Source of the DNA: Botrimarina mediterranea
GTDB taxonomy: Bacteria > Planctomycetota > Planctomycetia > Pirellulales > Lacipirellulaceae
Direction: 5' to 3'
Assembly (NCBI RefSeq): GCF_007753265.1
Contig: NZ_CP036349.1
Span: forward strand, 3,133,363 to 3,197,362
DNA: 64,000 nt
Shown: piece by piece, positions 15,354 through 42,321 of the stretch
Layout: each line of letters begins with the position of its first letter
Numbering within the stretch: the stretch's first letter is position 1
Notes under the pieces: generated by a model
Told to the model about the DNA's origin: nothing
The model's database searches: none
The model's input: the letters and a program-made list of their open reading frames with translations, nothing else
Program-made: the position numbers and the translations under genes

Positions 15354-15367
15354 GAAGGAGGCCGTCG

Positions 15368-16555
15368 GTGTTCACACGGAGAGACTTTCTACGGACGACG
15401 TCGCTCGTCACCGCGGCGCCCTTTGTGCCAACCTTCCTCGCCAAAACCTCGCGGGCCGCGACGCCGGTTGCCGATGACCGCGTGCTGGTTGTCATCCAAC
15501 TCGACGGCGGCAACGACGGCCTGAACACGGTTGTCCCCTACGGAGACGACGGCTACGGCCGCGCGCGCAAGGCGCTGCGGCTGAAGGAATCCGACCTGCT
15601 GAGGATTGACGACCACGTCGGCCTCCACCCACGGATGAAAGGCGCCAAGCAGCTGTTCGACGACGGACGGTTGGCGATCGTTCAGGGGGTCGGCTACCCG
15701 AACCCCGACCGCTCGCACTTCAGCAGCATGCGCATCTGGCAGTCGGGACGCCGGCACGACGCCGACCTGGAAGCCTACGGGTGGCTCGGTCGCACGCTCG
15801 ATCTGACTAGAGGGAACGGCTCCGCTTCGGTGGATGCCGAAGCGTTCTTTGTCGGCAACCAAGCGACGCCTTTCGCACTTTGGGGCCGACGATGCGGCGC
15901 AACAGCGCTAACAGAGCTCAGTGACCTGACGCTCGATGGCTCCTTCCCGCCGCTCCGCGACTCCGACAGAACCGACCTTGGCTCGTTCGTCACTCGCCAG
16001 ATGCGATCGGCGTACACGGCAGCCGAGGCATTCGCCCATGCCGAGCAAGCGGCCGTCGCTTCGCGGACGTCGTACCCGTCAACGGAGATCGCGTCGCACC
16101 TCAGCGTTGTGGCGAAACTCTTGCGGATCGGCTCTTCAGCCCGAGTGTTCTACGCGTCGCAGACTGGCTATGACACGCATGCTTCACAACTCTACACCCA
16201 TGGGAACCTCTTACGGGAGTTCTCCGACGCCCTCAAGGCGTTTCTCGATGACCTCCGTGCTAACGGGCTAGATGAACGCGTCGTCGTGCTCGCTTTCAGC
16301 GAGTTCGGCCGACGTGTTGCAGAGAACGACTCGAAGGGGACTGATCACGGCGCCGCAGGTCCTGTGTTCGTAGCAGGTGCTCCCATCAACGGCGGCTTGT
16401 ACGGCAAGACGCCCGATCTGTCCGCGTTGATCGATGGCGACCTCCCTTTGGGCGTCGATTTCCGCAGCGTCTACGCGACGCTTCTCGACCAGTGGGTGGG
16501 CGTCTCGTCCGAAGAGGTTCTGGGGGAAAGATATGATCCCTTACCCCTCATCTAA
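15368..16555 (+). CDS. DUF1501 family protein, Tat-exported
   Basis: 395 residues starting at GTG 15368, with GGAGG about 7 bases upstream. The N-terminus MFTRRDFLRTTSLV followed by a hydrophobic stretch and TSRAA is a twin-arginine signal peptide. The body has the DUF1501 pattern: VIQLDGGNDGLNTVVPYGD, HPRMKGAKQLFDDGRLAIVQGVGYPNPDRSHF, TGYDTHASQ, VVVLAFSEFGRRV, and DHGAAGPVFVAG. These motifs place it in the sulfatase/alkaline-phosphatase-like fold; the substrate is unknown. It is the last gene of the blaI-blaR1-DUF1800-DUF1501 operon. No terminator was identified after it. Confidence 0.92.
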   Translation: MFTRRDFLRTTSLVTAAPFVPTFLAKTSRAATPVADDRVLVVIQLDGGNDGLNTVVPYGDDGYGRARKALRLKESDLLRIDDHVGLHPRMKGAKQLFDDGRLAIVQGVGYPNPDRSHFSSMRIWQSGRRHDADLEAYGWLGRTLDLTRGNGSASVDAEAFFVGNQATPFALWGRRCGATALTELSDLTLDGSFPPLRDSDRTDLGSFVTRQMRSAYTAAEAFAHAEQAAVASRTSYPSTEIASHLSVVAKLLRIGSSARVFYASQTGYDTHASQLYTHGNLLREFSDALKAFLDDLRANGLDERVVVLAFSEFGRRVAENDSKGTDHGAAGPVFVAGAPINGGLYGKTPDLSALIDGDLPLGVDFRSVYATLLDQWVGVSSEEVLGERYDPLPLI

Positions 16556-17677
16556 GCCGACTCCTCCCGCGTCGATGTTTTGAGCGTGAGTTGCACTGTT
16601 GTCCGACCGACGCGCCGGCAGCACCTTGTCAATGTGAACGCTGTGTCCAGTACTCATCTAGCTGCTGGGCGTCAGAGTCCTCGCGCAAGGGAGAGTTAAG
16701 CCTTCTAGCTGAAGGTAGATTAATCCTCTCTATGTCGTGTCCCTGCATGCTAAGAAGCTAGCCGACTTTTTTACAACACTTGGGTACGGCCGGGCATCCG
16801 GGGCTGACGGCACTTGTAAGCTTCCCGCTATTCCTGCGGCATGAAGTTCAGGTTGACTTCAGCGTTCCCAAAAATGCGACCATCGGGACCGGGGGAGTAA
16901 CGGTGACTGGCGCTCCAAGCGGCGCGTAGCCTGCGAACTCTGCCGTGACGACGTAAACGCCGGGCGGTCTGACAAGGGTCCACACCGCGTCCCGCTTTCT
17001 CAACCGGTAGACCGCTTCTCCGTCGGCTCTGCGGTCCGTGGAGTGGCGATGCCTACGCCCGCCGTCTTGCACGCGATCAACGTACTGCATAACTGGATGG
17101 TAGATGCCACCAGTCACAAACTCGTACCGATTGAGTTTCTGCTGGTCGCTCTCGTCTGCGCGCCAGTGTTTCTCGGGGCGTATACCGGATCGAGGTTTAG
17201 AGGACCTCCGAAGCCGACGGCCTGAATGCGTGTCGTCTGAGGAACGCTTGTGAGGCCCGTCACGATCGCCCATCGCAGACACCGCCGATGGCAGGCGACG
17301 GTGTCTGCGATCTCAAGTGGTGGGCTAGATCAACATATCGAGCGCATTCCTCACTGCCTTCCTCAAAAAGCTCTCGAAGGAGGGAACCCGTGAGGGAATG
17401 CCAGGGCTGAACCTTAGCGACTAATCAAGAAGCCGTGATCGACGCACGGAACTGATCACTTGCGGACCAACCAACCTCATGAAATGGTTCGCGAGCGATC
17501 AGCTTTTCGAGATGCGAAGCTTATTTCGCATTGAGTCTCGCACCGTGAGTCTTCGCGTAAGGATGAGGGGCCGGTGTAGACCCGTGGGGTAAAGCGGTTG
17601 ATCGCTTGCCACCCACGCCCTCCTGTGACCAATTGCGGATAACACAGATTCAGAACGAGGAATTGCGGTAGCGGCGG
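16556..17677. other. Intergenic region with one doubtful open frame
   Basis: Over 1.1 kb with no convincing gene. A minus-strand frame at 16848-17282 (144 residues) ends in a segment with a beta-sandwich look (RPPGVYVVTAEFAGYAPLG), which could be the tail of a decayed transthyretin-like protein. Its N-terminal half is low-complexity and basic and is not convincing as protein. No RNA gene or terminator was recognised. Confidence 0.35.
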
Positions 17678-18055
17678 ATGGCGAATTGGGTGAATAGTAC
17701 GCGTGTCGTCACTCAACTTGATGGCCAAGTGGTTCTCTACCCCCGAGAGGTTCCGGTGGCTGAAAACCTCCCTCTTCTCCAAGATCGTCTTCTCGCGCTC
17801 TACTTCGAGCGGCAGGCCGCGGTGGGTCCGTTCACAGAGCCGCTATCGGACTTATTGGCTCGGCAGCGCGTGATGCGGCTAATCGAATCTGCCGTGCAGC
17901 AGGGGATGGTGGCCCAATTGGACCGCATCCGCACTTATGAAGATGCGCTCAGCCTGGAGTGCTTGATGACAACGCTTGACGGCCCTACGAAAGGCCAAGC
18001 TGCATCCTCTAGGACGTCTAATAGCCCAATCGAAGCCCCTCCACCCGTCCGGTGA
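17678..18055 (+). CDS. Hypothetical protein
   Basis: A 125-residue frame with a plausible protein composition: a short beta-like start (RVVTQLDGQVVLYP), an amphipathic helical middle (LLQDRLLALYFERQAAVG, LSDLLARQRVMRLIESAVQQ) and a polar Ser/Pro tail. No family was recognised, no signal peptide is seen, and no clear ribosome binding site precedes the ATG. It lies alone between the DUF1501 operon and a minus-strand PEP-CTERM gene. It may be a real accessory gene or chance. Confidence 0.4.
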   Translation: MANWVNSTRVVTQLDGQVVLYPREVPVAENLPLLQDRLLALYFERQAAVGPFTEPLSDLLARQRVMRLIESAVQQGMVAQLDRIRTYEDALSLECLMTTLDGPTKGQAASSRTSNSPIEAPPPVR

Positions 18056-18136
18056 CAAAGATATCGAGGGCGGGATAGATCGGGGCGGGAAGGGGGCATT
18101 GTGGCGGTCGGATTCTTGAGAAGTGATTACGCGTCT

Positions 18137-18796
18137 TCAGTTTTGCGGGCGACGGTGCAAGAGACCGCACACGCCGAGCATCGCGGCGAGCGCTAGGGTG
18201 GTGGGCTCGGGAATGGTGAGTGCAACCCGAAGCGGACGGACATTGCCGCCGAAGTAATCGGTGATGGCAAGTTCAACAAACGCCCCATCAATCCGTGCGT
18301 CGCCGATAAAGGTATACTGCCCTTCCTGACCCCAGATAGTCTGGAGACGCTCGCCCGTCACGACGTTGAACACCATCGCCAAACCTGGCCCGCAATCAGA
18401 AAAGCCCGCCTGCGGCGCCGTGATAACGCCGAGCACGCCTTCAACATCGACGGTGCCCCCGAAGCTTGAGAATATCGAACGACCGTAGAGGAAGTGTCCG
18501 GTCGATAGGGTCGAGATATGTTCCCCTGTATCGGCGTTGAAGACGAACGCCGACCCGGACCCAAGGACCTCGGGGGCGCCAATCACAGCAAACCCGCCAT
18601 CTAGGTCGCCGGAGTAGCCGAAGAGAGGCTCGTCATCCAGCGGGTAATCGGGCGGGATATTGAGCAGGAGGTCGTGCGTCAATTTACTGACAACCACGGT
18701 TGCCTCTGGGCCGGGATCGGCTGGCAGAATCAGCGGATCGAGAGCATGGGCGGCAGTGGCAGCGAACATTGCCGCGAGCGTGAGTAGCTGTCGCAT
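18137..18796 (-). CDS. PEP-CTERM protein with FG-GAP-like repeats
   Basis: The start is set at the ATG at 18796 because it opens a signal peptide (MRQLLTLAAMFAATAAHA); the open frame extends 20 codons further without looking like protein. The mature part has FG-GAP-like blade sequences: FGYSGDLDGGFAVIGAPE, then SGSAFVFNADTGEHISTL, then AMVFNVVTGERLQTI. This is too short for a full integrin-type propeller. The C-terminus IPEPTTLALAAMLGVCGLL plus HRRPQN is a PEP-CTERM sorting signal for the exosortase pathway (no exosortase is in the window). The DNA coding the tail is nearly identical to the tails of the minus-strand genes at 22.8, 24.0 and 25.4 kb. Confidence 0.85.
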   Translation of the reverse strand: MRQLLTLAAMFAATAAHALDPLILPADPGPEATVVVSKLTHDLLLNIPPDYPLDDEPLFGYSGDLDGGFAVIGAPEVLGSGSAFVFNADTGEHISTLSTGHFLYGRSIFSSFGGTVDVEGVLGVITAPQAGFSDCGPGLAMVFNVVTGERLQTIWGQEGQYTFIGDARIDGAFVELAITDYFGGNVRPLRVALTIPEPTTLALAAMLGVCGLLHRRPQN

Positions 18797-18890
18797 GGTA
18801 TTGGCCTCAGCGTGAAGAGTTGCACAAACGATAGCCCCGGCCGGCTGCCCCGTCACGCTTCCCCTGATCCGCCGTTGACAATCGTCTCGG

Positions 18891-19112
18891 TTACACGTTT
18901 CTATCGCCCCGCCTCAACTCGCAATAGCGTCTCAAGCCCCACGCAGCCGCCACCAGCAGAACGCCGGTCGTCGCGCAGCTGAGGAAGACAGCGAACCCCA
19001 TCTCTGCGCCGCTCTGGTTTCTAGAGTCCAGCCATTTGGAAACCGATCGGAGGCAAGATCGCCGCAGACTTTCGTTGGCTGACCGGCGGGCTTCCGGTCT
19101 TGGCAGACTCAC
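18891..19112 (-). CDS. Possible small membrane protein
   Basis: A 73-residue frame with one hydrophobic helix (MGFAVFLSCATTGVLLVAAA) and a basic tail (RRYCELRRGDRNV), which would suit a single-pass membrane protein. The upstream 37 residues look arbitrary, so an internal start at the Met before GFAVF is more likely if it is real. No family is recognised and there is no context support. Confidence 0.2.
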   Translation of the reverse strand: MSLPRPEARRSANESLRRSCLRSVSKWLDSRNQSGAEMGFAVFLSCATTGVLLVAAAWGLRRYCELRRGDRNV

Positions 19113-19160
19113 AGGCTAGGTAACGTGCTGGCGCCACGTTCCAGTGATGCGATCCACCGC

Positions 19161-19898
19161 CTACAGCGTCCCGAAGTGGACGCATAGGCTGGACGGATCT
19201 ACTCCGTTCTTCAAGAGGGCTTTGGATATCTGGCTCTGGACTTGTATCTCAGTAATTGACGGGTCGTAGCAGTAGAGTAGCAGACTTGCCTTGTCACCCT
19301 GGCACCTAACAGGCCCGATCGGCTCGATGAGTAAAACATCACTCGCTCTGCCTAGCAGTTCGCTAAGCGCGGCGCGAAGTTGCGGTGTGCGTTTAGGGTC
19401 TGCTAGTGATACCCAAACAGCGATAATCTTCTGTGGTCGCCGCTCAAACCTGGCTACCGCCTGCCCGGTTTGAGTGAGAGCAGGACGACCTTCCCTAACT
19501 AAGTCGAGAAACTTACAAACCTCTTCCCTCGCTCTCGCGTATCCCTCGGTGGTTCGGCATAACCGATGGTACACGAGTGGTTTCAAATACGAAGGCAGAT
19601 TCTCAGGGTGTTCAGACATTAGGAAGCAGGGCTTCCGAATCGCATGACGCACACCTAATTCGTAGAGGAGATTTGGTGTCGGTTCAGTCGCATCAGCCAA
19701 TAGTAAGTCAACCGTGACGATTTGCTCCAGCAGCGGTTGGTTGAGCGTCTCCCCAATAATGCCATCGAATGGTGCACGGAACTCAATCTGCTTTGGCTCT
19801 TTCAGCGGATCGATAATCTCTTCGATAAGAGTCTCGACGGCCCGGCGTCGATCGCTTTCGGGGGAGCCGACTGCCGTAATCAAGAAGCAACGTGGCAT
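19161..19898 (-). CDS. Nucleoside 2-deoxyribosyltransferase/TIR-like fold protein
   Basis: The start is set at the ATG at 19898 (MPRCFLITAVGSPESDRRRA), giving 245 residues; 18 further upstream codons look non-coding. The N-terminal half has the pattern of deoxyribosyltransferase- and TIR-like domains: a first strand CFLITAVGSP, then VDLLLADATEPTPNLLYELG with the conserved N-x-x-Y-E-L-G, then VRHAIRKPCFLM. Such domains bind or cleave nucleotides and are common in prokaryotic conflict systems. The C-terminal part (IIAVWVSLADPKRTPQLRAA onward) is a second alpha/beta region that I do not recognise. The gene is isolated within an accessory region. Function is inferred from fold only. Confidence 0.65.
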   Translation of the reverse strand: MPRCFLITAVGSPESDRRRAVETLIEEIIDPLKEPKQIEFRAPFDGIIGETLNQPLLEQIVTVDLLLADATEPTPNLLYELGVRHAIRKPCFLMSEHPENLPSYLKPLVYHRLCRTTEGYARAREEVCKFLDLVREGRPALTQTGQAVARFERRPQKIIAVWVSLADPKRTPQLRAALSELLGRASDVLLIEPIGPVRCQGDKASLLLYCYDPSITEIQVQSQISKALLKNGVDPSSLCVHFGTL

Positions 19899-20064
19899 TG
19901 CTAGGCTGGCCCCTGTGAGAGAGTTATTCTGGGTGAACACTTGCCGTCGCAACGGGACGTCGACCGAAAGCGCCCACCTCTACCGCCAACCTCCTCGCCT
20001 GTCAACCATCACCTAGAGACTCCCAGCGGATCGGCCGCGGTAGAGCAGCTTTGTAGTTGTTGAA

Positions 20065-21162
20065 CTACGGGCCAGTCGTAATAGGGAGGCTCGGAATCGT
20101 AGGAATGACCACCGGAGTTAGGTTGGCTGGCGGGTTCGCAGGTGGTAGGTTTTCGCGCGTAGCTGCTGGTGAGATGTTAAGTAGGCTCTGGTTAAAGATA
20201 TCGATTGCTCTGTTCGAGTTGCCCATGAATTCGTTTTCTCCGGTGGCCAACCTAGGAATCTGGAACTCGTTCACGGTACCGCTCGCGGCGCCAGTCACTT
20301 TGATGGTGGTGCCATCGCTCAGCTTGACCGTCTTTTCCACTTGAACGTATGGCGGGTCTAGGACGCCGAGTTCCTGGATCGATAGAGTAGCTCTCGCAAG
20401 ACTGGGAATACCGCGCGCATCGACCCATGCGGTGTAGCTTCCGCAGCATCCGCGGTAGTGTCCCCTGTGACATGACTTCCACCAAGCGAGTCCCTTCTTC
20501 TCGATTCCGTACCAGCAAGTTGGTAGCTTGCATGCCATCGCGGTAGAGAGCGATCGTCTATACTCTTCCGCGTCATTCGACGTGTAGAAATCTCGTGTTA
20601 TAGGATCGATTTTCTCAGCAGTAGGTCGTGGCAGGAAGCCGACGCTGGTCAGCTGCCCTAGGCAGTTTGAGCAAGCATTGTCGCCTGCGAGTACAACACG
20701 GTACTGAGTTCCAGCGTGATCGCTTTGGACGGGCGCAACTGCCAAGTTATATCCACGCGTCATTAGATGCATGGCGCATTGGATTCGGCGCAATCGGCTT
20801 GGGCTAGTTACGGGAGCAATCCCCCAAGACTCGGCTACCGTTCTGGAGCCATTGAGATTTAAGACTTCGCTAACGAGCGTCGTCGGGTTCCATGTCAATC
20901 CTACCGTACTTCCTGCCGAGCTTGTCGCCTGAGTTGTTCCGGAGCTGATGACAGCAACGTGAGGGAGTGACCCTGGCTGGCAATGAGCCATCGCTACATT
21001 GCTTAGTGTCTGCTCATAAAGCAGATCGGTAATCGAGCCTACTTGTGCTACGTTCGATTTTCGGAGGTGAGTGTGAGTGCAGCCAGTCACTGCCAAGGCC
21101 AATACAGTTACGGCAATCGCGATCGACTGTCGCTCGATTCGGCGCCATTGAGTTGCAGACAT
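20065..21162 (-). CDS. Cysteine-rich lipoprotein of unknown function
   Basis: 365 residues. The N-terminus (RQSIAIAVTVLALAVTGC) is a lipoprotein signal peptide with a clear lipobox; Cys28 would be lipidated. The mature part contains SNVAMAHCQPGSLPHVAVIS and GLTWNPTTL, then a cysteine-rich middle (CSNC, CKLPTCWYG, CHRGHYRGCCGSYTAWV), a beta-rich section (VEKTVKLSDGTTIKVTGAA) and a Pro-rich tail. From memory, planctomycetes carry related lipoproteins of unknown role; I cannot name a family. It stands alone, and the adjoining ends show no operon partner. Confidence 0.75.
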   Translation of the reverse strand: MSATQWRRIERQSIAIAVTVLALAVTGCTHTHLRKSNVAQVGSITDLLYEQTLSNVAMAHCQPGSLPHVAVISSGTTQATSSAGSTVGLTWNPTTLVSEVLNLNGSRTVAESWGIAPVTSPSRLRRIQCAMHLMTRGYNLAVAPVQSDHAGTQYRVVLAGDNACSNCLGQLTSVGFLPRPTAEKIDPITRDFYTSNDAEEYRRSLSTAMACKLPTCWYGIEKKGLAWWKSCHRGHYRGCCGSYTAWVDARGIPSLARATLSIQELGVLDPPYVQVEKTVKLSDGTTIKVTGAASGTVNEFQIPRLATGENEFMGNSNRAIDIFNQSLLNISPAATRENLPPANPPANLTPVVIPTIPSLPITTGP

Positions 21163-21445
21163 CGCTCACCAATCCCTAGATTTGACGATGCAGAATGCGG
21201 GGCACCGTCCTGGTGCTCTAGACCGGAATACTCGGCGCCCACGCAGTAGGGGATTCGCGACGCCTGCGAGGTTTTGGCAAGACCTAAGGGGTGTGCATGC
21301 ACCACGACCGAAACAATCGCTATAACTTCGCGCCGTGCGTGCTATCGCCACGGGGTCGTGTAGGTGTAAAGCCCCAGCGATCCACAGTGCGTCAGTAGTG
21401 CCTGAACGTCCTGGCATTGTTTTCAGCTCGACGGAGCCTGTGTCA

Positions 21446-21598
21446 TCAGCGAGCCGCCATCCAAGCCTTCGCCGCCTCATAGAGCGCTTCGGATCGGCTC
21501 ATCTGGTTCGCCAACGCCTTCGCGGCGAACGACTTCGGCACGCGCGTCGGAATCGAGGTGGTCGGCTCGGCTTTCTTCAGCTTCTCGGCGGGGGACAT
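21446..21598 (-). CDS. Small hypothetical protein, second gene of a two-gene operon
   Basis: 50 residues beginning MSPAEKLKKAEPTTSIPTR, with a C-terminal amphipathic helix (SRSEALYEAAKAWMAAR). It starts 5 bp after the stop of the 83-residue gene, in the same direction, which is the main reason to believe it. The sequence is Lys/Ala-rich and has no cysteines or signal peptide. No family is recognised. Confidence 0.5.
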   Translation of the reverse strand: MSPAEKLKKAEPTTSIPTRVPKSFAAKALANQMSRSEALYEAAKAWMAAR

Positions 21599-21603
21599 TG
21601 CTG

Positions 21604-21855
21604 CTACTCGATGGCTCCTAGAACTGGTGACCCGGCTTCGAAGAAGGCGATCTGTTCCAGCGGCGCCCACGTCACAACGCCCACGACCGCCAAGTCGATC
21701 AGCCCGGTGACGATGACAAGCTCGCTCAGCCCGACCCGGTGGGCGATCTTCTCGACCGGGGCGCCAGCGCCCCATTCGGCTTCGACGTCGCGCACCGTCT
21801 CGGCAATGGTGAAGTGGTCGGCAGTGAGAGCGGCGAATCGTTGGAGCGGCGTCAT
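21604..21855 (-). CDS. Small winged-helix-like protein
   Basis: 83 residues. The middle (VEKIAHRVGLSELVIVTGLIDLAVVGVVTW) has the helix-turn-helix-strand rhythm of a small winged-helix domain: a helix, a short turn at VGLS, a second helix, then a beta hairpin. It could be a DNA-binding or protein-binding accessory factor. It is the first gene of a two-gene unit with the 50-residue protein. No family is recognised. Confidence 0.5.
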   Translation of the reverse strand: MTPLQRFAALTADHFTIAETVRDVEAEWGAGAPVEKIAHRVGLSELVIVTGLIDLAVVGVVTWAPLEQIAFFEAGSPVLGAIE

Positions 21856-22074
21856 GATCGCCGCAGAATACGCCCGTACACTTATTGGCTCAAGCCGCTA
21901 TATCATGAGTAGCGGGCGGAGAGGCGGCCCTAGCGGTTGGTTTTACCATTGAAGAGCCCCCCGCTACGAAGCATCCAGGCGTGGCACCGCCGAGATTGGC
22001 ATGATATCGTGCGGGCTACCTGCTGCTCGCTGGTCTGCAATCTTGCGCAACCATAAGAAGTAAGGGATGGTCTA

Positions 22075-22773
22075 ATGAGAGCTAACGCAATCGGATTTAT
22101 TCTCACTGCCGTGGCGGGGACATCGTATTGCGCTACCGCCGCTAGCCTCGTGACTTTCCAGTTCGTGGCAGAGAGCGTCAGTCAGTATTCAGAAGCCTTC
22201 TACACGGTGCCCCTAGGGACACGCGTTGTCGGAACATACACGTTCGATCTAGATACGCCAGGCGACCCTCCTGCGAGCCCAGTGGGCTTCACCTGGTACG
22301 ACAACGCCATAAAGGGTGCCACGCTTGCGATGGAGGGTTTTGGAGAAGCGACGGGCTACGGCGGAGGGACAATTCGCATCGGCAACCCCGTCCGCACTAG
22401 CGGGTCCTACAACTTCCTTTCCGACCAGTACGTCGCCTACTTCCCGGTCGCCGGTATATCACTCGACACAAGAGTTTTCGGGCGCCGCAATCTCGTCGGC
22501 GCACACATACGAATGGCGGACTTGGATATGGAAGGCATCGCCACAGCTGACCTATCCGCCAATCCTCCCGACCTATCGTACTTCCTGGACAATACGGGAC
22601 CCGACTACGACTCCGACAACGCCGAACTGTATCTCACGTTCGACACTGCCAACTCGGGCTACAACTCCAACCCATTCAGGCTGATCTCGCTGATTCGAGT
22701 GCCTGAGCCTTCCGCAACGGCACTTGCGTGTATAGCGTTTGTCGCGACGCTGCGGAACCGGCGCAGGCATTAG
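22075..22773 (+). CDS. PEP-CTERM protein
   Basis: 232 residues. The signal peptide (MRANAIGFILTAVAGTSYCATAA) is followed by a beta-rich domain (VTFQFVAESVSQYSEAF, GTRVVGTYTFDLDTPGDPP) and a C-terminal PEP-CTERM signal (RVPEPSATALACIAFVATLRNRRRH). It is predicted to be exported and processed by an exosortase. The 3' end overlaps the tail of the convergent minus-strand gene by about 200 bp. Unlike its minus-strand neighbours, its PEP-CTERM DNA is not part of the shared near-identical cassette. Function unknown. Confidence 0.82.
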   Translation: MRANAIGFILTAVAGTSYCATAASLVTFQFVAESVSQYSEAFYTVPLGTRVVGTYTFDLDTPGDPPASPVGFTWYDNAIKGATLAMEGFGEATGYGGGTIRIGNPVRTSGSYNFLSDQYVAYFPVAGISLDTRVFGRRNLVGAHIRMADLDMEGIATADLSANPPDLSYFLDNTGPDYDSDNAELYLTFDTANSGYNSNPFRLISLIRVPEPSATALACIAFVATLRNRRRH

Positions 22774-23763
22774 GGACTGGCGACGCATGAGGCCCCAGCC
22801 GGCGAGCATCGCGGCGAGCGCTAGGGCGGTGGGCTCGGGGATGGTGGCGACGCGAAAGCCGCGATCGATCGCGACACTCAGAGGCGACGACCCAATACCA
22901 ACCGGCTGTCCTGAGAGGAGAACTTGAAAGTCAGACCTCCAAGCGCTGCCGGAAACACCCATCAACACAGAATCTGATGGGGAGACTGAGTTCGTCTCAG
23001 TCCACTCCCAGACATTGCCGGCCATATCAAAGGCACCGTATGAACTCGTTGTCTCGCTATACGCTCCAACATCTGTTAGCGGATACATCCTGTTCGGCAT
23101 GGCTTCGCCTGAGTTGTAGCCATCGCCCGGCGCGTATCGGGTAAAGTTGGCGACGTTTGTCGTGTTCGGCGTGTCCAGCGTTGCTGGATCATCGGAGTCG
23201 GGCACGGAGTTCGAGCCAGTTGCGAAATCAAAATAGACAGCCGACTTCCCCGCAGACGCGTCATGGAACGCGGCCTTATACCACTCGTCCAGGCTTGGCA
23301 GCCAGTACTTTGCGTCCGAGTTCCTGCTGACAGTGAAGGGTTGAGACAGGTCCGCTGGGAGTTGAGTCAAATCGTAGGCGCCGCTTTCTGTGTCTCCGTC
23401 GCCCTGACTGTTATGCATCCAATTCACGAACCGTACGGCATTGAACCAAGTCACGAATACGACTGGTTTATTCGCATAGCTATAGTCTCGGCCGGCCTGG
23501 ACCCCTAACGCATCCTCCTTGACGGCATACGAATACGAACCGATATCGCCTAGCCGAACGATGCCGCCGTGACTACTGCTCATCATCTGCGACGAGAAGA
23601 GACCATACTGATCATCCATTGCCTTGGCGTTGAGAAACTCGACGTATTGGCGGTTGGAGACATTGGTGCGTGCAACCGCGAAGGTGTCAGCGACCGTGCC
23701 GAGTCCATTATCAGGATCGGCGGCATTGTCCGGGTTTCCCACGACCGCCCAATCGAAGCTCAC
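22573..23763 (-). CDS. SUMF1/formylglycine-generating-enzyme-like protein with PEP-CTERM motif and extended tail
   Basis: The open frame starts at GTG 23763. It has the SUMF1/FGE-sulfatase fold: VARTNVSNRQYVEFLNAKA, PVVFVTWFNAVRFVNWMH, KYWLPSLDEWYKAAFHD, GAFDMAGNVWEWTETN, and a final DRGFRVA. The catalytic cysteines of true formylglycine-generating enzymes are not evident, so it is more likely a binding or non-catalytic member. A PEP-CTERM motif (IPEPTALALAAMLAGWGL) lies near residue 310, but the frame continues about 60 residues past its RR end, antisense to the convergent gene; the normal stop appears to have been lost. The signal peptide lies upstream, separated by an in-frame TAG. The gene may be inactive. 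Confidence 0.7.
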   Translation of the reverse strand: MSFDWAVVGNPDNAADPDNGLGTVADTFAVARTNVSNRQYVEFLNAKAMDDQYGLFSSQMMSSSHGGIVRLGDIGSYSYAVKEDALGVQAGRDYSYANKPVVFVTWFNAVRFVNWMHNSQGDGDTESGAYDLTQLPADLSQPFTVSRNSDAKYWLPSLDEWYKAAFHDASAGKSAVYFDFATGSNSVPDSDDPATLDTPNTTNVANFTRYAPGDGYNSGEAMPNRMYPLTDVGAYSETTSSYGAFDMAGNVWEWTETNSVSPSDSVLMGVSGSAWRSDFQVLLSGQPVGIGSSPLSVAIDRGFRVATIPEPTALALAAMLAGWGLMRRQSLMPAPVPQRRDKRYTRKCRCGRLRHSNQRDQPEWVGVVARVGSVEREIQFGVVGVVVGSRIVQEVR

Positions 23764-23826
23764 GGCCGCAATTGTAGGCTGGCCGTAGGCGGCGACGAGG
23801 AGGAGCTAGAGGAACGATCGAGGCAT
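23764..23826 (-). other. Signal peptide of the SUMF1-like gene interrupted by an amber codon
   Basis: In frame with the SUMF1-like gene, an ATG at 23826 (preceded by GGAG) reads MPRSFL, then TAG at 23806-23808, then LLLVAAYGQPTIAA leading directly into the mature sequence. Without the stop this is a normal Sec signal peptide. The stop therefore splits the leader from the body. Confidence 0.75.
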
Positions 23827-23938
23827 TAGTCTGATCTCCATGGGGCTCGTACTAGCTAACCGTAACCGACAACGGCGAGCGAGGTCACGCTTCACTGGCC
23901 GCCGACCCCTAAAAGCGTCTCCAGCGAACCCCCTGCAG

Positions 23939-23996
23939 TTGCAGCAACAACCAGCGTTCAGCCCGAAGGAAGCGGGCTACTTTCGTGGCGCGGCGG
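23939..23996. repeat. Short dispersed repeat, copy 1
   Basis: A 58-bp element nearly identical to 24777-24833. It carries the hairpin AGCCCG-AAGGAAG-CGGGCT and ends in a GCGCGGCGG-type tail. It overlaps the last codons and stop of the PEP-CTERM gene at 23958. Confidence 0.65.
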
Positions 23997-24635
23997 CCGC
24001 CCCATCATCCACCAGCCAGCGAGCATCGTGGCGAGCACTACGGTGGTGGGCTCGGGGATGACCCGCACAGTCCAGGTATCGGTCTGGCGAAGCGTTGCTC
24101 GATCGAGGGTGCCTTCCCAAGGCCAGTGCGGTTGACCATTCGGGTCCGGTCCCTCTGGCGCCGGCGGCAAGTCCCAGTGTCGAAGCGTGACGTGATACTC
24201 GCCGGGAGAAAGATTCCCGATCCAGTAGCTCCTTTCCTCCGGCCCAGTGAACGCATCCCCAACGAAGCCATTCAGGCGATGGTAGAGGTCGAACGAAACA
24301 GTGCGGGTGTCGCCATCCACGACGGGAAGCTCTGTGGCGTAATGCGAGTAAGGGTCGGTTGTGTTAGTCAAGTTCTTGAGTGGAACCCATAGCGCAAACG
24401 AGTCACTTGCAGAGAGCGGGTCACGCTGCGGCCGCTGCTCAGGACGTTGCGTCGCGGGACTGAAATCCCAGGAGCGATGGTAAACCGGATCCCCGATCGA
24501 CTGGCCGGGGGCGGCGTTGTCAATGCGGCTCGGACGATCGACGTAGATGTCGAATCCATCCCAAGCAAAGGTGGGCTGTGCCGCTGCTGCGATAGGCAGC
24601 AGTAGCGTCAAGATGAGAGCCGCAAGGCGATGCAT
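23958..24635 (-). CDS. PEP-CTERM protein
   Basis: The start is set at the ATG at 24635 because it begins a clean signal peptide (MHRLAALILTLLLPIAAAAQ); 15 further codons upstream are open but atypical. The mature part has a beta-rich body (FAWDGFDIYVDRP, TRTVSFDLYHRLNGFVGDAF, GEYHVTLRHWDLP) of unknown fold. The PEP-CTERM region is IPEPTTVVLATMLAGWWMM, ending in basic residues. The final codons (ESSPLPSG and stop) are supplied by a repeat that recurs at 24777-24833, so the end of the gene was probably reshaped by that element. Confidence 0.8.
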   Translation of the reverse strand: MHRLAALILTLLLPIAAAAQPTFAWDGFDIYVDRPSRIDNAAPGQSIGDPVYHRSWDFSPATQRPEQRPQRDPLSASDSFALWVPLKNLTNTTDPYSHYATELPVVDGDTRTVSFDLYHRLNGFVGDAFTGPEERSYWIGNLSPGEYHVTLRHWDLPPAPEGPDPNGQPHWPWEGTLDRATLRQTDTWTVRVIPEPTTVVLATMLAGWWMMGRPPRHESSPLPSG

Positions 24636-24776
24636 GGCGATCACGGGGGCTAAGACGGTTGGCTCCTCTGGGGAAAGCACAGTCTAACCGCCTACGCCAT
24701 CTTGTCACACTTCGGCCCATCCGTCGTTGACAACGCCCCCGCCCCAAAAATTTGACGCGTAATAAATTCATTGAAA

Positions 24777-24833
24777 TTGCAGCACCAACCTGCGTTCAGC
24801 CCGAAGGCAGCGGGCTAATTCGTCGCGCGGCGG
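24777..24833. repeat. Short dispersed repeat, copy 2
   Basis: The second copy of the element, in the same orientation, with the hairpin arms AGCCCG/CGGGCT kept and only a few mismatches. It lies about 100 bp beyond the end of the gene at 24926-25282 and may act as its transcript end. Confidence 0.65.
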
Positions 24834-24925
24834 ACTGCGGTGAGAGGTTTGAGCCCATAAGTGAAAGGCCGCAGAGCAGTCGTCTGCCCTGCGACCTAGT
24901 TAATCACTCCATCATCAGACGCGCC

Positions 24926-25282
24926 CTATCGAGGCTTGTAAGCGTACGCGTGGCGGATGTAGGGGCGGTCGGTCTCATAGTCCCCGCCGTAGTCTCGCGA
25001 CAAATTAGCGTCGAGGTCTTCGTCCCACTGCTTGTATTCGATTCCGTACATGCGATGCGCCGCAACTCCGAATCGGAACGCCTGTTCGTGGTTCTCGAAG
25101 GCGTCACTGGAGCCCGCCATTTGCTTGACGGTATCATCGACATCCTGACCCATATCCCGTGCCGAATCGTCACCGAAGTCGGCCTTGGTCTGCTCCCAGT
25201 CGTTGGCGAACGCGGCTTTGATCCGTTCCCACGTGCTGTCGTCTTCAGCGGTTTGCCATTTGGGTCTAGCTTTGGTGGCCAT
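24926..25282 (-). CDS. Hypothetical acidic protein
   Basis: A 118-residue soluble, charged protein: the helical N-terminal half (WERIKAAFANDWEQTKADFG) is followed by DMGQDVDDTVKQMAG and a Tyr/Asp-rich C-terminus (DRPYIRHAYAYKPR). The Trp/Phe-spaced helices are reminiscent of small stress-associated proteins, but I cannot assign a family. The ATG is preceded by a purine-rich GGATC stretch. Neighbours are PEP-CTERM genes, which give no functional hint. Confidence 0.65.
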   Translation of the reverse strand: MATKARPKWQTAEDDSTWERIKAAFANDWEQTKADFGDDSARDMGQDVDDTVKQMAGSSDAFENHEQAFRFGVAAHRMYGIEYKQWDEDLDANLSRDYGGDYETDRPYIRHAYAYKPR

Positions 25283-25329
25283 GATTGATCCTATCGGGTT
25301 GACCGACGGTCGCTCTGACGCGCCGACAT

Positions 25330-26475
25330 CTAAGGAAGAGAAGGCTTGGTTGCCTTCCTATCCGACTGATACGAATGGCGTGCCAATCTGGAACCAGAGC
25401 ACCCCTGCAAGCGACGGCGACGCACGAGTCCCCAACCGGCGAGCATCGCGACGAGCGCTAGGTTTGTGGGCTCGGGGATGGTTGGTAGGACGGCGCCGTA
25501 GATGTTGGGGCTGTTCTGGTTTGAGCGGCCATCGGTCCAAACGATTAGTCCGTTGTCGATCGCGGGATAGTACTGACCACCGGCGGCGTTGCTCACAAAG
25601 AACGTATTACCGTTCGTGAAATCTTCGCCGTAGATATCGAATAGGTTCGGCGCCCCGCCTTCGCCTTCCCCCCAGAGGATAGTGGACCCCTCAATGACGG
25701 GAGTCTGAATCAACTGACTGGTCTCACTTTGAGCACGAACAAGAAAGTAGTCCCCCGTCGTCAAGTCCGTTCGATACAAACCCTCAACGCCATCGCGTAC
25801 GCCCATCCATACGACCGTCTCGCCGTCGATGGCAGGCCCTCGAAAGTCAGCTGTGAACGTGTTGTTGATCGCGTATGCCGTGCTAGTGGAGAGATTCAGT
25901 CCTTGAACGCCTCGGTTGCGCGAGTCAACCCAGATAACCGTATCGCCGCTAATCGCCGGCCGGAATTGGTCGCCGACTGCCGAGGAAACGACGAACTCCA
26001 TGTTGGTAAGTAGATCGAACCCATAGATGTCGCTCCCCCCGTTACGTTCGTCCTGCCAGACGATCAAGTTGCCGTCGATTTGGGGGCGCCGCTGGTTTCG
26101 ACTCGCAGTTGATATGGGGAACTCGACGCCCGTGCTTAGATTCTTCGCGTAGATATCGGCGCCGCCGTTTCGATAGTCCTCCCAAACCACAACGTCGCCG
26201 CTGATCACGGGACGATACTGTGAGCCCGTCGCGGTAGTCACAGAGAACTCAACTCCAGTCCCGAGGTCTTTGCCGTAGATGTCATACTCGGTCCCTGATG
26301 CAGCGCCTCTACCGTCTTCCCAAACAACGACCTGCCCACTGACATCGGGGAATTGCTGGAAGGCTGAGTAGGTCGAGATGGCGAACTCATCCAAGCCATC
26401 GGCACTGGCTTGCCTGTCGAAGCACATCGCTGCGAGAAGGAGTACGGCGAGATAAGAATTGCGGGCAGGATTCAC
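25330..26475 (-). CDS. PEP-CTERM protein with TolB-like beta-propeller repeats
   Basis: 381 residues. The signal peptide (MNPARNSYLAVLLLAAMCF to ASA) precedes about six blades of the type PVISGDVVVWEDYRNGG-x-DIYAKNLSTG. Each blade has the V-V-W-x-D-x-R and D-I-Y pattern seen in TolB-like propellers, so the fold is probably a closed propeller. The PEP-CTERM part is IPEPTNLALVAMLAGWGLV plus RRRR, followed by about 24 extra residues that do not belong to the motif; the stop may have shifted. The tail DNA belongs to the shared cassette also present at 18.2, 22.8 and 24.0 kb. Likely surface-displayed; ligand unknown. Confidence 0.85.
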   Translation of the reverse strand: MNPARNSYLAVLLLAAMCFDRQASADGLDEFAISTYSAFQQFPDVSGQVVVWEDGRGAASGTEYDIYGKDLGTGVEFSVTTATGSQYRPVISGDVVVWEDYRNGGADIYAKNLSTGVEFPISTASRNQRRPQIDGNLIVWQDERNGGSDIYGFDLLTNMEFVVSSAVGDQFRPAISGDTVIWVDSRNRGVQGLNLSTSTAYAINNTFTADFRGPAIDGETVVWMGVRDGVEGLYRTDLTTGDYFLVRAQSETSQLIQTPVIEGSTILWGEGEGGAPNLFDIYGEDFTNGNTFFVSNAAGGQYYPAIDNGLIVWTDGRSNQNSPNIYGAVLPTIPEPTNLALVAMLAGWGLVRRRRLQGCSGSRLARHSYQSDRKATKPSLP

Positions 26476-26962
26476 GAGCGACTCCCTGGTTGCCTATTGA
26501 AGACGGTGGTACGCAGTCCCTGTACAGTATGCGAGGCCCCAGACGTTTGCCACCAATGTAGCGATCTACCGAAGTCGCCCGGCGAAAACCCGCCTGCTTT
26601 TCCGTCCCTGGTTGGCGAAAACACTGGCCGCTCCGTTGTGGGGCGGTTGGGAAATTCCAAATAAGCGTCTGGCCTATCTGCACCACCACCCCCTAGGGCC
26701 TAGGGCACCAGTGGCGCCAGGCACCAACAAGCGATTCGCGAGGCCGTGCGCGCTGTCGTCGCAATGGCTCTCGGGCTACAAGTGGGCGTCGTGACGTTCG
26801 TCCTGGATTCTGACAACAACCGGGCGGTTTCAAGTTGCAACGACCCTGGCGAGTCGCCTGTCGATGTGACCTTCCCCCGATCTATGTACCAGGCGTTGCT
26901 AGAGAATTGGAATCGTTGGATGCTGCTCCGCCGGGCCGCGTCCGCCCTGGGGCCTACTTCTG
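26476..26962. other. Intergenic region
   Basis: Nothing convincing is seen here; open frames are short and lack protein character. Confidence 0.4.
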
Positions 26963-27276
26963 CTACGCCTCAGCAGGTCCCGGAGCGGAGGTGGGCCAGC
27001 GGGCGGCGAGATCGGCGGAAAGCAAATACCCCAACGAGCTGTGTGGGCGTCGGTGGTTGTAGTCTAACCGCCTCCATTCAATGACCCAGCGGGCGACAGA
27101 AGCGTCGCTCCGCCACTTCCGCTCGGGGCTCATCAGTTTGCATTGGCCGCCTCCTTCAGGAACTCCATGTCGAGAGCCTGGTCCGCCACGAGCTTCTTTA
27201 GCCTTGCGTTCTCCTTCTCCAGAGCACGAAGCTGCTTCGCCAGGTCAGCCGCCATACCGCCGTACTTCAATCGCAT
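26963..27276 (-). mobile_element. IS3-family transposase remnant with internal deletion
   Basis: Two short minus-strand frames overlap as orfA and orfB of an IS3 element do. The first (27276-27133, 47 residues) reads MRLKYGGMAADLAKQ, then LEKENARLKKLVADQALD and EFLKEA: the leucine-zipper end of OrfA. Its TGA overlaps the ATG of the second (27133-26963, 56 residues), which contains WVIEWRRLDYNHRRPHSSLG: the extreme C-terminus of the OrfB integrase, just after the catalytic DDE region. The catalytic domain is missing, so this is an internally deleted, non-functional copy. Terminal inverted repeats were not identified. Confidence 0.85.
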
Positions 27277-27314
27277 ACATCACACTCTCAAGGACGTTCT
27301 GACGCCCTGCATAA

Positions 27315-27338
27315 GCAAGACGGCATCTACCGTCTTGC
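27315..27338. repeat. Perfect hairpin
   Basis: GCAAGACGG and CCGTCTTGC, 9-bp perfect arms with a 6-base loop (CATCTA), just upstream of the IS3 remnant's orfA. There is no T-tract, so it is not a standard terminator. It could be part of the island border. Confidence 0.5.
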
Positions 27339-27492
27339 ATGCATCGGAAGGCGCTGAACCGTACCGCGTACAGGGGAAAACTATGCGTAGCGATGTTTAC
27401 TATTGCGACGGCCGGTGAGTGGGTTACAGTGCTAGAATTACTGAAGGAAACGCTGATTCCAGCGGTCGCATTTAAGGGTTTTGCAAGCAGGA

Positions 27493-27521
27493 TGTCGCAG
27501 GTTCGATTCCTGTCAGCTCCA
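27493..27521 (+). other. tmRNA (ssrA) 3'-end fragment, probable attachment site
   Basis: The sequence forms a T-arm (GCAGG-TTCGATT-CCTGT) followed directly by CAGCTCCA, the 3' acceptor strand typical of tmRNA (its 5' partner would be GGGGCTG). The matching 5' part and tag-reading frame are not present upstream, so this is only the 3' end. Integrases often use tmRNA 3' ends as attachment sites and an integrase relic starts 110 bp downstream. A tRNA origin is possible but the acceptor fits tmRNA better. Confidence 0.6.
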
Positions 27522-27630
27522 CTTGTTGTAAATGCCTGTCGCGTAGGACCTTACGGCCTAACCTCCCGGCGGTCGGGAGTGCTGCCAGCAGCCAAATCGA
27601 GTGTCAATCTGACACCCATCGCAGCCGGCC

Positions 27631-28150
27631 ATGCCCAAAACGCCCCGCGTTCCGCCCTACTGCCATCACAAGCCCAGCAATCGTGCCTACTGCCGGATCG
27701 GCGGTAAGTTCCACTACCTGGGCCCCTACGATTCGCCAGTACGATTCGCCAGAAAGTCGCGAGGCGTACGCCTCCACCGTGGCTGACATTCTTGCCGGCC
27801 GACCCGTCGGCACCTCTGCTGCAGCCTCTGGTGCCCCCGCTGCCTACCGGCTGACTGTACGCGAGCTGGTCGACCGCTACGTCGCCCACGCCGCCGCTTA
27901 CTACGTCAAGTACGGGGACGGCCGTCCGAGCGGACGACGGAGTTCGGGCTCCCAATTTTTGGGCCTTCTGACCTGGGGGTTGGGGGCCCTTCGCTCTGAC
28001 CGAACCGGCGAACCACGGAGGAGCCTCATTGAGGACTGGCCAGAAACTTTCGCAACGATGCTAAACGGAATCGCAAAGGGCGAGAGCGAAGGCAAGACCG
28101 TCTTGAGTGCGTCCTGCGAGCTAGTACGCGGGTTTCGAATTACGAGATAG
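27631..28150 (+). pseudogene. Tyrosine-type integrase, N-terminal part, frameshifted and truncated
   Basis: From ATG 27631 the frame reads MPKTPRVPPYCHHKPSNRAY, then CRIGGKFHYLGPYDSP. Here a 13-bp tandem duplication (TACGATTCGCCAG at 27727-27739 and 27740-27752) shifts the frame. The following frame resumes PESREAYASTVADILAGRP and runs through TVRELVDRYVAHAAAYYVK, which is the core-binding region of planctomycete phage-type integrases. Similarity stops near 27935; the catalytic domain (R..H-x-x-R..Y) is absent. The gene is therefore dead twice over. It follows the tmRNA fragment, as expected for an integrated island. Confidence 0.82.
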
Positions 28151-28784
28151 TCAGCAAAACGCAGGTCTCCCAGTCAGAAGCAGGAAGCAGGGTCCTCCTG
28201 TAGGCCCCTCTCGAAAGGTCATCCCGGCCGCGGCCGCAGCAGACATACCGTCCGTCCGGTGAGTTTTGCGGGTCAGGGCAGCTTGGTTCTGCCGCGACAC
28301 GCGCGTCTGCCGCCCAAACCTAAGTCTTTCGGCACCAGGTACTGCCGCAGGTCACACGGCGTAGTTCCGTCCTCCGCGCCTCCCGAGGCGTTTCACGCCT
28401 CAGCAGATTTGGCTGTGTTGGAATTAGACCGCAGCAGCGGCGAACGACTCAACTTTGTCGTCGAGCCGCGTCGCTCAGAATAAACCGATCCGAGGTTAGT
28501 AGGCACCACCGGATCGACCGCCGTAGGCGCCGTTTCAAATACAAGGCCGATCGCCGGGTGTCACGTGTGCATGATCAATGGCAAATGGCATGATTTTGCT
28601 CACGTACTGGCGTCTTCAAAAGGGCGACGTACATGGCCATATCAGATATCCTAGTGGGCAACCTATTGCCCGCTGATCGGCATAACCTCAGTTCCACCCG
28701 ACCGCCGCGACGACTAGCGTGATGGAAAGCTAACCGGGCGGCCGGTGCAGTTTTTCGTCAGACCTCTGGTGATTTAGCGATTCC
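28151..28784. other. Intergenic region in island debris
   Basis: No gene is supported; a 74-codon frame at 28259-28483 has no protein character. Confidence 0.4.
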
Positions 28785-29684
28785 ATGTCCGCAAAAGACC
28801 CGCTTACGATCATCGGCCAACCGCCGCCGACCGCCGCCGAACGACAGCAGGTCATGGCATTTGCCGAGGCGACCGGTCGGCCGGCGAAGTTCTGTCGTGC
28901 CGCGATACTCGAAGCAAAGGGCGACGAAACGGAGGCAATGCGGCTAATTCAGGACGAAGCGTTCGTGCGGTTGCACACCGACTTTGATTTCGACGCGATG
29001 TTCAAACTGGCCGCCAACCCGGCGGCAATCATGGAGTATACGACGCGGCAGGAGATGACCCACGCCGGCAAGAGCGAGGCCGAGATCGCCCAGGCCACTG
29101 CGGAGCTAAAGCAAGAATTGGCCGAATGCACCGAACGAGAGGCGGCGTTTAAAAAACGCGAACGGCAACGGGTGAAAAAAGTTCTTGGCAAGATAGTCGA
29201 CGACCCCGTGTTCGGAAGGCTCGCACACGATGGGTACAGCTGGAGCGGTACGATCAACCTCCCGCCATTTGGTGAAGGAATTGAGCTGATTGTCGAGCCG
29301 CCCGAACCAACCGAAGAGTTGGTCTATCCGACCCGCCGACAGCGGGAGGTTTTCGCGCGATTCAGGGCCCAGGCTGAGACTCGATATCGGCAGGCGGAGC
29401 GAGCCCACTTCGAGTCTTTCCGCGAGGTCCGTCCGCAGTTGGTCAACGAGCAGGAACATATGGTCAGCTTAGTGTCAAATTGGACGGTTGATCCGGTGCC
29501 CGACCCGCAAGAACCCGCCGATATCTGGGCCCAGATCGAAGGCGAGCCAACCCTCATCGTTGGCCCAGACATTGGCGGCAATCCGGTTGCCATCACGCTC
29601 GCCTACGAAGTGGCGTGGGACCCCGAACACGGCAACTACTTACGATTCGAGAGCGGTTGCGTCGTCCAGATCGGTGGCCCCTAG
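28785..29684 (+). CDS. Protein with UBA-like N-terminus and DUF6985/DUF2262-like immunity domain
   Basis: 299 residues, soluble. Residues 15-55 (RQQVMAFAEATGRPAKFCRA, then EAKGDETEAMRLIQDEAF) have the three-helix pattern of UBA/TS-N domains. A charged coiled-coil-like segment follows (about 95-135, ending AAFKKRERQRVKKVL). The C-terminal part (DDPVFGRLAHDGYSWSGTI, LPPFGEGIELIVEPPEPTEE, and the close AYEVAWDPEHGNYLRF) resembles DUF6985/DUF2262-type proteins, many of which are predicted immunity proteins of contact-dependent toxin systems. No toxin gene is next to it, so it could be an orphan immunity gene left by the island. The family call is from memory and moderate. Confidence 0.6.
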   Translation: MSAKDPLTIIGQPPPTAAERQQVMAFAEATGRPAKFCRAAILEAKGDETEAMRLIQDEAFVRLHTDFDFDAMFKLAANPAAIMEYTTRQEMTHAGKSEAEIAQATAELKQELAECTEREAAFKKRERQRVKKVLGKIVDDPVFGRLAHDGYSWSGTINLPPFGEGIELIVEPPEPTEELVYPTRRQREVFARFRAQAETRYRQAERAHFESFREVRPQLVNEQEHMVSLVSNWTVDPVPDPQEPADIWAQIEGEPTLIVGPDIGGNPVAITLAYEVAWDPEHGNYLRFESGCVVQIGGP

Positions 29685-29734
29685 AACTCCAATGGTAATC
29701 AGTCAGGGTCGAGGGCACTCCGCCGGGCGTCACA

Positions 29735-29863
29735 GTTAGCTCGCCTTGCAGTGCGAAGCGGATACCCGGCATCCAAACTCGCGTCGGTGCAGTTCATCTC
29801 CGTCAGTTTCGGGATCGCCAAATCTGCGGAGACTTCATCGTTCTCAGCGCCGAGAAGTTTCAC
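29735..29863. repeat. Dispersed repeat, copy A
   Basis: The 3' 43 bp (29821-29863) match 37208-37250 with 4 differences, and upstream sequence is loosely alignable. One frame reads ICGDFIVLSAEKFH. No intact gene surrounds it. Confidence 0.6.
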
Positions 29864-29960
29864 TTCTACGCAGACTTGGCGGCTGTAAAAAAACCAGCCC
29901 GGAGCGTGTCAGGACTCTACTACTTCAAAGCGGGTCGTAATCGCAAGTCTGGTCGTATGG

Positions 29961-30983
29961 CTAAAGGTCGTCGATATCGACCATCTTGCCGTCTTCGCGA
30001 TTGGCGAGTTTCGCGAGTACCCCGACATCGGTGTCGTCGCCGACGAATCGGATGGAGCCGTCAGCTATCGCGAATTGGCAGCCGCCCGGGTGGTGGCTAC
30101 CGAACCCGCCGACAGCGAGCGGGTTGTTCGGGTCGCCTCCCCGCGGGATGTACGGGTCGTCGCTTTGTTCGGCGTCATCCACCGGAGCTTCGTCGCCCGA
30201 CTCCTCCTCAAGGCCGTCATCTCCTCCGAAGTCATCACTGCCACTGCCATCGTAGGTTTGGTAATTTGCCGCGGATTCCCACCAGGGTGGAAGCGAGCCG
30301 CCACCCCAGCGATCGGGTTGCTTACCGCCGTTCCCGTTGATGGCGACGCCAACATTGCGCAGCGTCGCGGGCGTCCCGCTCATCCAGCCGAGATCGGTCA
30401 AGCCGTCAGTGATCTTTTCTCCGATCAGCAGTGAGTAGCCGGCGCCGTCCAGCATCTCCTCAAACCTGATTCGGCTGTTGAGGAACAAGAGGCCCGTGTT
30501 GGTCTCTGCGATCGGCGCCTCAGCGTCATGATGGACTCCAGCGTAGCTCGAGTAGGGGTAATCGTCCGCGGGCGTGCTCGGGCATCGCAGGAGCTCGATC
30601 CCCGACTGCCGCACCGCGTTATTCAACCGATGGTAGGCGCCTACCTCAAGGTCCATCATGCGGTAACGCACCTGCTCGCCCATGTAGGGGAGGATCCGCA
30701 CGATCCAACTCTTGTGATCGCCTTCGGGCAGATTACGGATCGGTCCGGTCGGGTTGGTCGAGCCGCTGGGGAATCTCTCGAAGGCCGCCTCGAAGTTGTG
30801 CACCCCAATTGTCACCTGCCGCAAGTTGTTCTGGCAGGATGATCGTCGAGCGGCTTCGCGAGCCGCCTGGACCGCTGGAAGCAGCAACGCGACCAAGATG
30901 CCGATGATCGCGATCACTACGAGCAGTTCGACTAAGGTGAATCCCAACGACCTTCGCAGGGAGCGACGTAGTAGTACGGACAT
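29961..30983 (-). CDS. DUF1559 family pseudopilin
   Basis: The start is set at the ATG at 30983 (MSVLLRRSLRRSLGFTLVEL), giving 340 residues. The leader ends in [21 protein letters not shown], the type IV pilin/type II pseudopilin cleavage site and helix. LLPAVQAAREAARRSSCQNN and the closing FGSHHPGGCQFAIADGSIRFV are DUF1559 hallmarks. An acidic insert (DDFGGDDGLEEESGDEAPVD) near residue 270 is unusual. It is the last gene of the secretion operon, 34 bp after the small pseudopilin gene. The expected role is a surface or periplasmic pilin-like subunit; the exact function is unknown. Confidence 0.92.
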   Translation of the reverse strand: MSVLLRRSLRRSLGFTLVELLVVIAIIGILVALLLPAVQAAREAARRSSCQNNLRQVTIGVHNFEAAFERFPSGSTNPTGPIRNLPEGDHKSWIVRILPYMGEQVRYRMMDLEVGAYHRLNNAVRQSGIELLRCPSTPADDYPYSSYAGVHHDAEAPIAETNTGLLFLNSRIRFEEMLDGAGYSLLIGEKITDGLTDLGWMSGTPATLRNVGVAINGNGGKQPDRWGGGSLPPWWESAANYQTYDGSGSDDFGGDDGLEEESGDEAPVDDAEQSDDPYIPRGGDPNNPLAVGGFGSHHPGGCQFAIADGSIRFVGDDTDVGVLAKLANREDGKMVDIDDL

Positions 30984-31017
30984 GGCGACTAGTGTCTTGT
31001 TGAAGGAGAACAGCAGT

Positions 31018-42316: not shown

Positions 42317-42321
42317 TCAGC
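42291..42321. repeat. Dispersed repeat, copy C
   Basis: A short match to copies A and B; one frame reads TCGGFIVLSS and then diverges. It lies within 50 bp of the broken end of the helicase gene. Confidence 0.45.

Follow-up and report, generated by a model that had tools for sequence, protein, structure and literature searches.

Is a gene whose leader is cut by an in-frame TAG, and whose frame runs on beyond its PEP-CTERM motif, a recent pseudogene, a working gene that is read through its stop, or an intact gene that was misread? The question is raised by a SUMF1-like gene on the minus strand of the window, the whole 64,000-nucleotide stretch of Botrimarina mediterranea DNA analysed here, for which the first-pass annotation had offered the first two answers. 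Our analysis favours a young pseudogene, at a probability of about 0.8; its product would have been exported, anchored through PEP-CTERM and built on a SUMF1/C-type-lectin fold. The reading frame is disrupted relative to intact homologs: the leader is cut by TAG, nothing was found in the genome that reads TAG as sense, and the stop after the PEP-CTERM motif is absent (Table 1).

Table 1 Features of the window gene, its surroundings and the DGR locus of a relative (positions are those of the window unless a genome and contig are given)
Feature	Coordinates	Strand	Basis or remark
Shine-Dalgarno-like GGAG	23836..23839	-	nine bases before ATG, read from sequence
Leader start, ATG (23826-23824) plus five codons, MPRSFL	23809..23826	-	codon-by-codon alignment with relatives' leaders
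In-frame TAG, leader codon 7	23806..23808	-	sequence and leader alignment
Remainder of leader, LLLVAAYGQPTIAA	23764..23805	-	sequence, alignment, window-score test
PF03781 SUMF1/FGE-sulfatase stretch	22990..23697	-	residues 23-258 of ORF from 23763, E 8.4e-19
Stretch equivalent to relatives' DGR variable region	22861..22938	-	RGGSW lost, no C-ending codon signature
PEP-CTERM-like motif, IPEPTALALAAMLAGWGLMRR	22780..22842	-	by eye and DNA similarity to neighbouring cassettes
Run-on tail, 67 codons	22576..22776	-	almost wholly antisense, in register with convergent gene
Off-frame TAA	22770..22772	-	sequence; overlaps convergent gene's stop
TAG closing the frame	22573..22575	-	sequence; 67 codons past last matched residue
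Convergent PEP-CTERM protein gene	22075..22773	+	ORF; motif at G000:C1:3156061-3156129
Species-variable island containing the window gene	16556..29960	.	flanks conserved in G001
DGR target gene	G002:C3 466183-465200	one strand with bAvd, RT and template	locus order
bAvd	G002:C3 464971-464642	same strand as target	PF22296, E 6.5e-15; start chosen by analyst
RT	G002:C3 464649-463630	same strand as target	PF00078, E 9.5e-23; start chosen by analyst
Template repeat	G002:C3 463582-463471	same strand as target	repeat match

The leader aligns without gaps to the leaders of seven relatives, which bears out the earlier description of a TAG-cut leader that is in frame with the body and preceded by GGAG. 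When the 115,909 windows of 21 residues in the six frames of the 64 kb are scored against these seven leaders, 26 do as well, and of the 1,184 windows that begin with M, 3 do; because so few do, the leader is judged to be real, beyond chance. Comparison with the closest homologs, suggested at the outset, points the same way: 24 relatives were examined out of 29 other loci fetched, and all 24 have an open leader (with an in-frame ATG in 23 and none seen in L024), whereas the window gene has TAG at codon 7. With its leader cut, the gene as written lacks the signal peptide of PEP-CTERM/exosortase substrates; ribosomes would stop at codon 7, and no leader-bearing protein would be made.

Suppression or recoding of UAG is unsupported by the genome. 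RF1 is present (451 bits), PylS was not found in a genome search, and none of the 46 tRNAs confirmed by ARAGORN, out of 48 tRNA-model hits, carries a CUA anticodon; the two unconfirmed hits (L168 and L170) show no CUA in the anticodon loop by eye. Of 53 frames picked out by a pattern match, almost all of which are PEP-CTERM genes, 13 end in TAG, a codon that serves this genome as an ordinary stop. The readthrough alternative of the first-pass annotation is thus unsupported, although a low background of readthrough is conceivable, and its other alternative, a recent pseudogene, gains from the failure to find readthrough machinery and from the open leaders of the relatives. Within the window, ARAGORN also calls a tRNA-Asn at 10999-11088 on the minus strand, inside a 3224-codon ORF; this call is probably false, because the tRNA covariance search finds nothing there.

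A gene that is still used, either by low-level readthrough of TAG or as a leaderless protein started at the in-frame GTG at 23763, 15 codons after the TAG, would fit the open body. However, besides the presence of RF1 and the lack of any suppressor tRNA or PylS among the genome matches, no Shine-Dalgarno-like sequence is seen by eye before this GTG, a PEP-CTERM protein without a leader would not reach the exosortase, and an open leader has been retained in every one of the 24 relatives examined. We consider continued use quite improbable.

Beyond the leader, the body is free of stops for 329 codons (22777-23763, minus strand), and its G+C by codon position (0.57/0.49/0.66) resembles that of coding neighbours; these two features speak against a pseudogene. 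The body matches PF03781 at 68.7 bits, against a Pfam gathering cut-off of 23.3, confirming that the gene is SUMF1-like. Formylglycine-generating enzymes require active-site cysteines, and the translation of the body contains no cysteine, which rules out that the window protein is such an enzyme. Under neutral drift, the chance that no stop would have arisen in the body is 0.04 at 0.1 substitutions per site and 0.20 at 0.05; if drift was neutral, the absence of stops therefore suggests that the break is young, and the body would now be drifting. The predicted structure of the body has a mean pLDDT of 60.6, with a poor C-terminal half, and its PDB matches are of the FGE/EgtB type and weak (TM about 0.35). 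The prediction for an intact relative, L009, is no better (mean pLDDT 57.1), and structure prediction is uninformative as a test of decay, the window body not being separable from this relative.

At the C-terminal end of the body, IPEP, a hydrophobic stretch and RR can be recognized by eye in IPEPTALALAAMLAGWGLMRR; motif models give no match, and the motif is absent among the 149 genome matches listed. Up to the RR, three cassettes nearby share 85-90% DNA identity with it over 49-71 bases. The four cassettes lie on the minus strand within about 7 kb (18148-18218, 24012-24060, 25416-25482 and 22779-22845) and resemble one another in DNA more closely than they do the other cassettes found in the genome, a pattern that local copying would give. 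The missing stop is unusual. Out of at least 149 PEP-CTERM matches we examined 50, for the most part those with the highest scores, together with four that had been flagged for internal stops, which proved to be ordinary gene ends. From the start of xPEP to the stop, 47 of these 50 span 21-36 residues (median 24), and the other three run on into a second protein; in the window frame the distance from IPEP to the stop is 89 residues, which places the motif away from the very C-terminus.

The tail had been described as a run of about 60 codons past the motif, antisense to a convergent gene, and at 67 codons it is indeed so placed. Because it is read codon against codon with the opposite gene, the frame can close only where that gene uses TTA, CTA or TCA as a sense codon. 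With the codon use of 15 window genes, a run of 67 open codons has a chance of about 0.40, and with that of six local genes 0.12; given this register and a length expected by chance, there is nothing remarkable in a tail that stays open. The earlier view that both ends are damaged is fair, even if a run-on of this length is the chance expectation in that frame. The stop itself may have been lost in one of two ways. The off-frame TAA overlapping the stop of the convergent gene hints that the frame has slipped slightly at about 22.78 kb. Alternatively, the PEP-CTERM cassette may have been copied locally without its stop, which is possible because its DNA is close to that of the three neighbours and because the neighbouring PEP-CTERM genes have tails of their own, ending 25, 33 and 49 residues after the first residue of IPEP.

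Could the tail be a real C-terminal extension, like the continuations past PEP-CTERM seen elsewhere in the genus? Such continuations occur in 11 distinct ORFs, and in two of the PEP-CTERM genes nearby the tail is rather long (33 and 49 residues from IPEP); yet the window tail contains neither a second leader nor a second protein, runs antisense in register, differs from the body in G+C by codon position (0.73/0.48/0.52), and is no longer than chance would give. An extension is thus very improbable, and the tail as a second domain was rejected on the lack of a second protein, the antisense register and the G+C difference.

The continuations elsewhere are two-protein ORFs of about 770-990 codons, in regions chosen for long frames, each with one protein that bears PEP-CTERM and RR and leads directly into a second leader and protein: L223, L224, L225, L226 and L247 in the window genome (G000), L234, L236 and L238 in G001, L245 in G002, L253 in G003 and L227 in G017. 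Most of them have a second PEP-CTERM, and several of the second leaders lack a Met. L227 (G017:C1:1923500-1931000) joins two SUMF1-like units in one 844-codon ORF, with a PEP motif after each. Sequencing error is argued against in these ORFs because the L223/L234 and L224/L236 junctions are alike across species, and they are possibly polyproteins that would be cut by exosortase and signal peptidase.

For the window gene, base-call errors at the TAG, at the missing stop or at both could make an intact gene look broken. A body open for 329 codons, a TAA lying off-frame a few bases beyond the PEP-CTERM and a helicase gene in the same window that is also split between frames all agree with sequencing or assembly error. 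Against this, two independent errors of different kinds would be needed in one gene to account for its two ends, the genome (95.4% complete) forms a single closed contig, and errors do not explain why conserved residues have gone, the RGGSW motif among them; we regard error as unlikely. The helicase gene (42317-45090, minus strand) changes frame near 44.2 kb, looks cut short near 42.3 kb and is itself either a pseudogene or a sequence error.

The reading as a young pseudogene can also be set against the family as a whole, which has matches in 24 of the 39 genomes searched (the gene's own included). The nearest relatives of the window gene are 44-49% identical to it; among the matches listed, the best relative from a named genome, a Planctomycetota MAG, is 39% identical. 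In a tree of 23 rows, from which L020 (apparently frameshifted) and L036 (partial) were left out, the window gene is placed in an unresolved fork. Its end branch measures 1.71, where those of the five genus members measure 0.11-0.36; of 83 conserved columns it no longer has 14, compared with losses of 0-3 in the genus members. The end branches of the distant relatives L019, L024 and L025 equal this length (1.73-1.74), and L025 and L019, both with intact leaders, have lost 15 and 13 of 85 conserved columns. Given these relatives, divergence alone does not show decay, and in the window gene it is only suggestive. Decay is also seen in other family members: internal stops stand in 3 of 86 rows, and L020 has an apparent frameshift. 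At G012:C152:6417-7557, SUMF1-like pieces in two frames lie beside an RT piece with a stop, which looks like a decayed diversity-generating retroelement (DGR) locus.

A profile of 18 family members matches structures of SUMF1, SUMF2, FGE and EgtB, and also Treponema denticola variable protein 1 (PDB 2y3c; positions 22-280 of 300, E 1.3e-6). DGR-type systems are described, and C-type-lectin folds and FGE domains are named among their targets, in passages of PMC8144416 and PMC10907252. In eight close relatives, the stretch bounded by RGGS and GFRVA is hypervariable, between flanks that are nearly identical in seven of them and less so in L008. A search with one hypervariable stretch returned an extra copy on G002:C3, outside the target gene, which reads RGGSWNNNSNNLRADNRNNNNPTNENNNVGFRVA; this template repeat is AAC-rich. 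The whole locus (L012, L272; G002:C3:463471-466183) comprises target, bAvd, RT and template (Table 1), and its target, in which the variable region is C-terminal, is a DGR target with both a leader and PEP-CTERM. Furthermore, seven variable regions (two in G001, three in G002 and two in G007) differ from the template at 129 of 231 A positions, against 31 of 553 positions with other bases, although these regions are kin, so that a Fisher value is no strict probability. The RT, bAvd, template repeat and adenine-biased variable regions thus make some family members DGR targets.

A second, diverged pair is found on G022:C209 (L265), where the variable region belongs to a SUMF1/PEP-CTERM frame and the template follows 876 bases further along; despite this pair, no match to the G002 RT was found in the 270-contig G022 assembly. 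The G002 RT is matched in 9 of 25 genomes searched, in some only distantly, and has no match in the window genome, G001, G003, G007 or G022, where a very different RT could escape the search. Variable regions without a detected RT do exist, for example in G001 and G007.

The window gene was rejected as a current DGR target: no paired template was found for it, its genome has no RT match, and its equivalent stretch bears no variable-region signature. In particular, 5 of 25 codons in this stretch end in C, against 14-19 of 25-27 in the relatives, the third positions being T9 G8 C5 A3, and neither the variable nor the template repeat of the relatives has a DNA match in the window genome. We read the gene as a divergent orphan of a family with PEP-CTERM-bearing DGR targets.

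The surroundings of the gene differ between sister species. ORFs on both flanks (three in 4357-16555 and four in 29961-33624) have matches of 75-93% identity on contig C7 of G001, whereas none of 10 tested ORFs between 18137 and 29684 matches the corresponding G001 stretch; the spacing between the conserved flanks is about 13 kb here and about 35 kb in G001. At the threshold used, the flanking gene was found in G001 alone of three sister genomes, and none of the three has a match to the convergent gene. By these matches, the window gene sits in a hypervariable island that is not shared with G001. Since no repeats or RT were found in the genome and the island is species-variable, the orphan family member may have become dispensable. 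A long end branch, together with the lost RGGSW, suggests that by the time the leader was cut, constraint had already relaxed or the function had changed.

What we infer is the loss of the product, the order of events, surface display and descent from an ancestor that was diversified. Tentatively, and with somewhat less than even confidence, we propose that DGR-diversified SUMF1/C-type-lectin proteins are displayed on the cell surface through exosortase (PEP-CTERM) anchoring, and that the window gene is a relic of such a system, in which the retroelement was lost, the variable region froze and drifted, and the amber codon then silenced the leader. Taken alone, the window gene is an unexceptional case of an accessory surface protein turned pseudogene, and its value is as a lead. 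In the open-licence literature, we found no papers on diversity-generating retroelements together with PEP-CTERM or exosortase, and none joining PEP-CTERM with 'formylglycine-generating' or 'polyprotein'; papers matching retroelement together with PEP-CTERM look unrelated by their titles and the openings of their abstracts. The family joins DGR with leader and PEP-CTERM, two systems not found together in the literature searched, and, if our proposal is true, exosortase anchoring would be a display route for targeted hypermutation that is absent from that literature. The family also offers a natural series, from a complete DGR through targets without a detected RT and decayed pieces to a broken orphan, that lets one ask what becomes of hypervariable receptors once the diversifying machine is lost.

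Three known systems resemble the window gene in part. It is like SUMF1-like/FGE-sulfatase proteins in its PF03781 match and in the matches of the family profile to SUMF1, SUMF2, FGE and EgtB structures; unlike them, it has no cysteine in its body, carries a PEP-CTERM-like tail and has a broken leader. By eye and by its cassette DNA it resembles PEP-CTERM/exosortase substrates (TIGR02595, PF07589) in IPEP, the hydrophobic stretch and RR, but its motif ends 67 codons short of the C-terminus, its leader is cut and the motif models do not match it. The DGR variable proteins, represented by Treponema denticola 2y3c, are alike in the family profile, and the relatives in G002 and G022 have template/variable pairs; the window copy bears no signature of a variable region, and the search of its genome revealed no DGR. 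Finally, the DGR proteins of Treponema and Legionella are described as lipoproteins, whereas the relatives described here carry PEP-CTERM.
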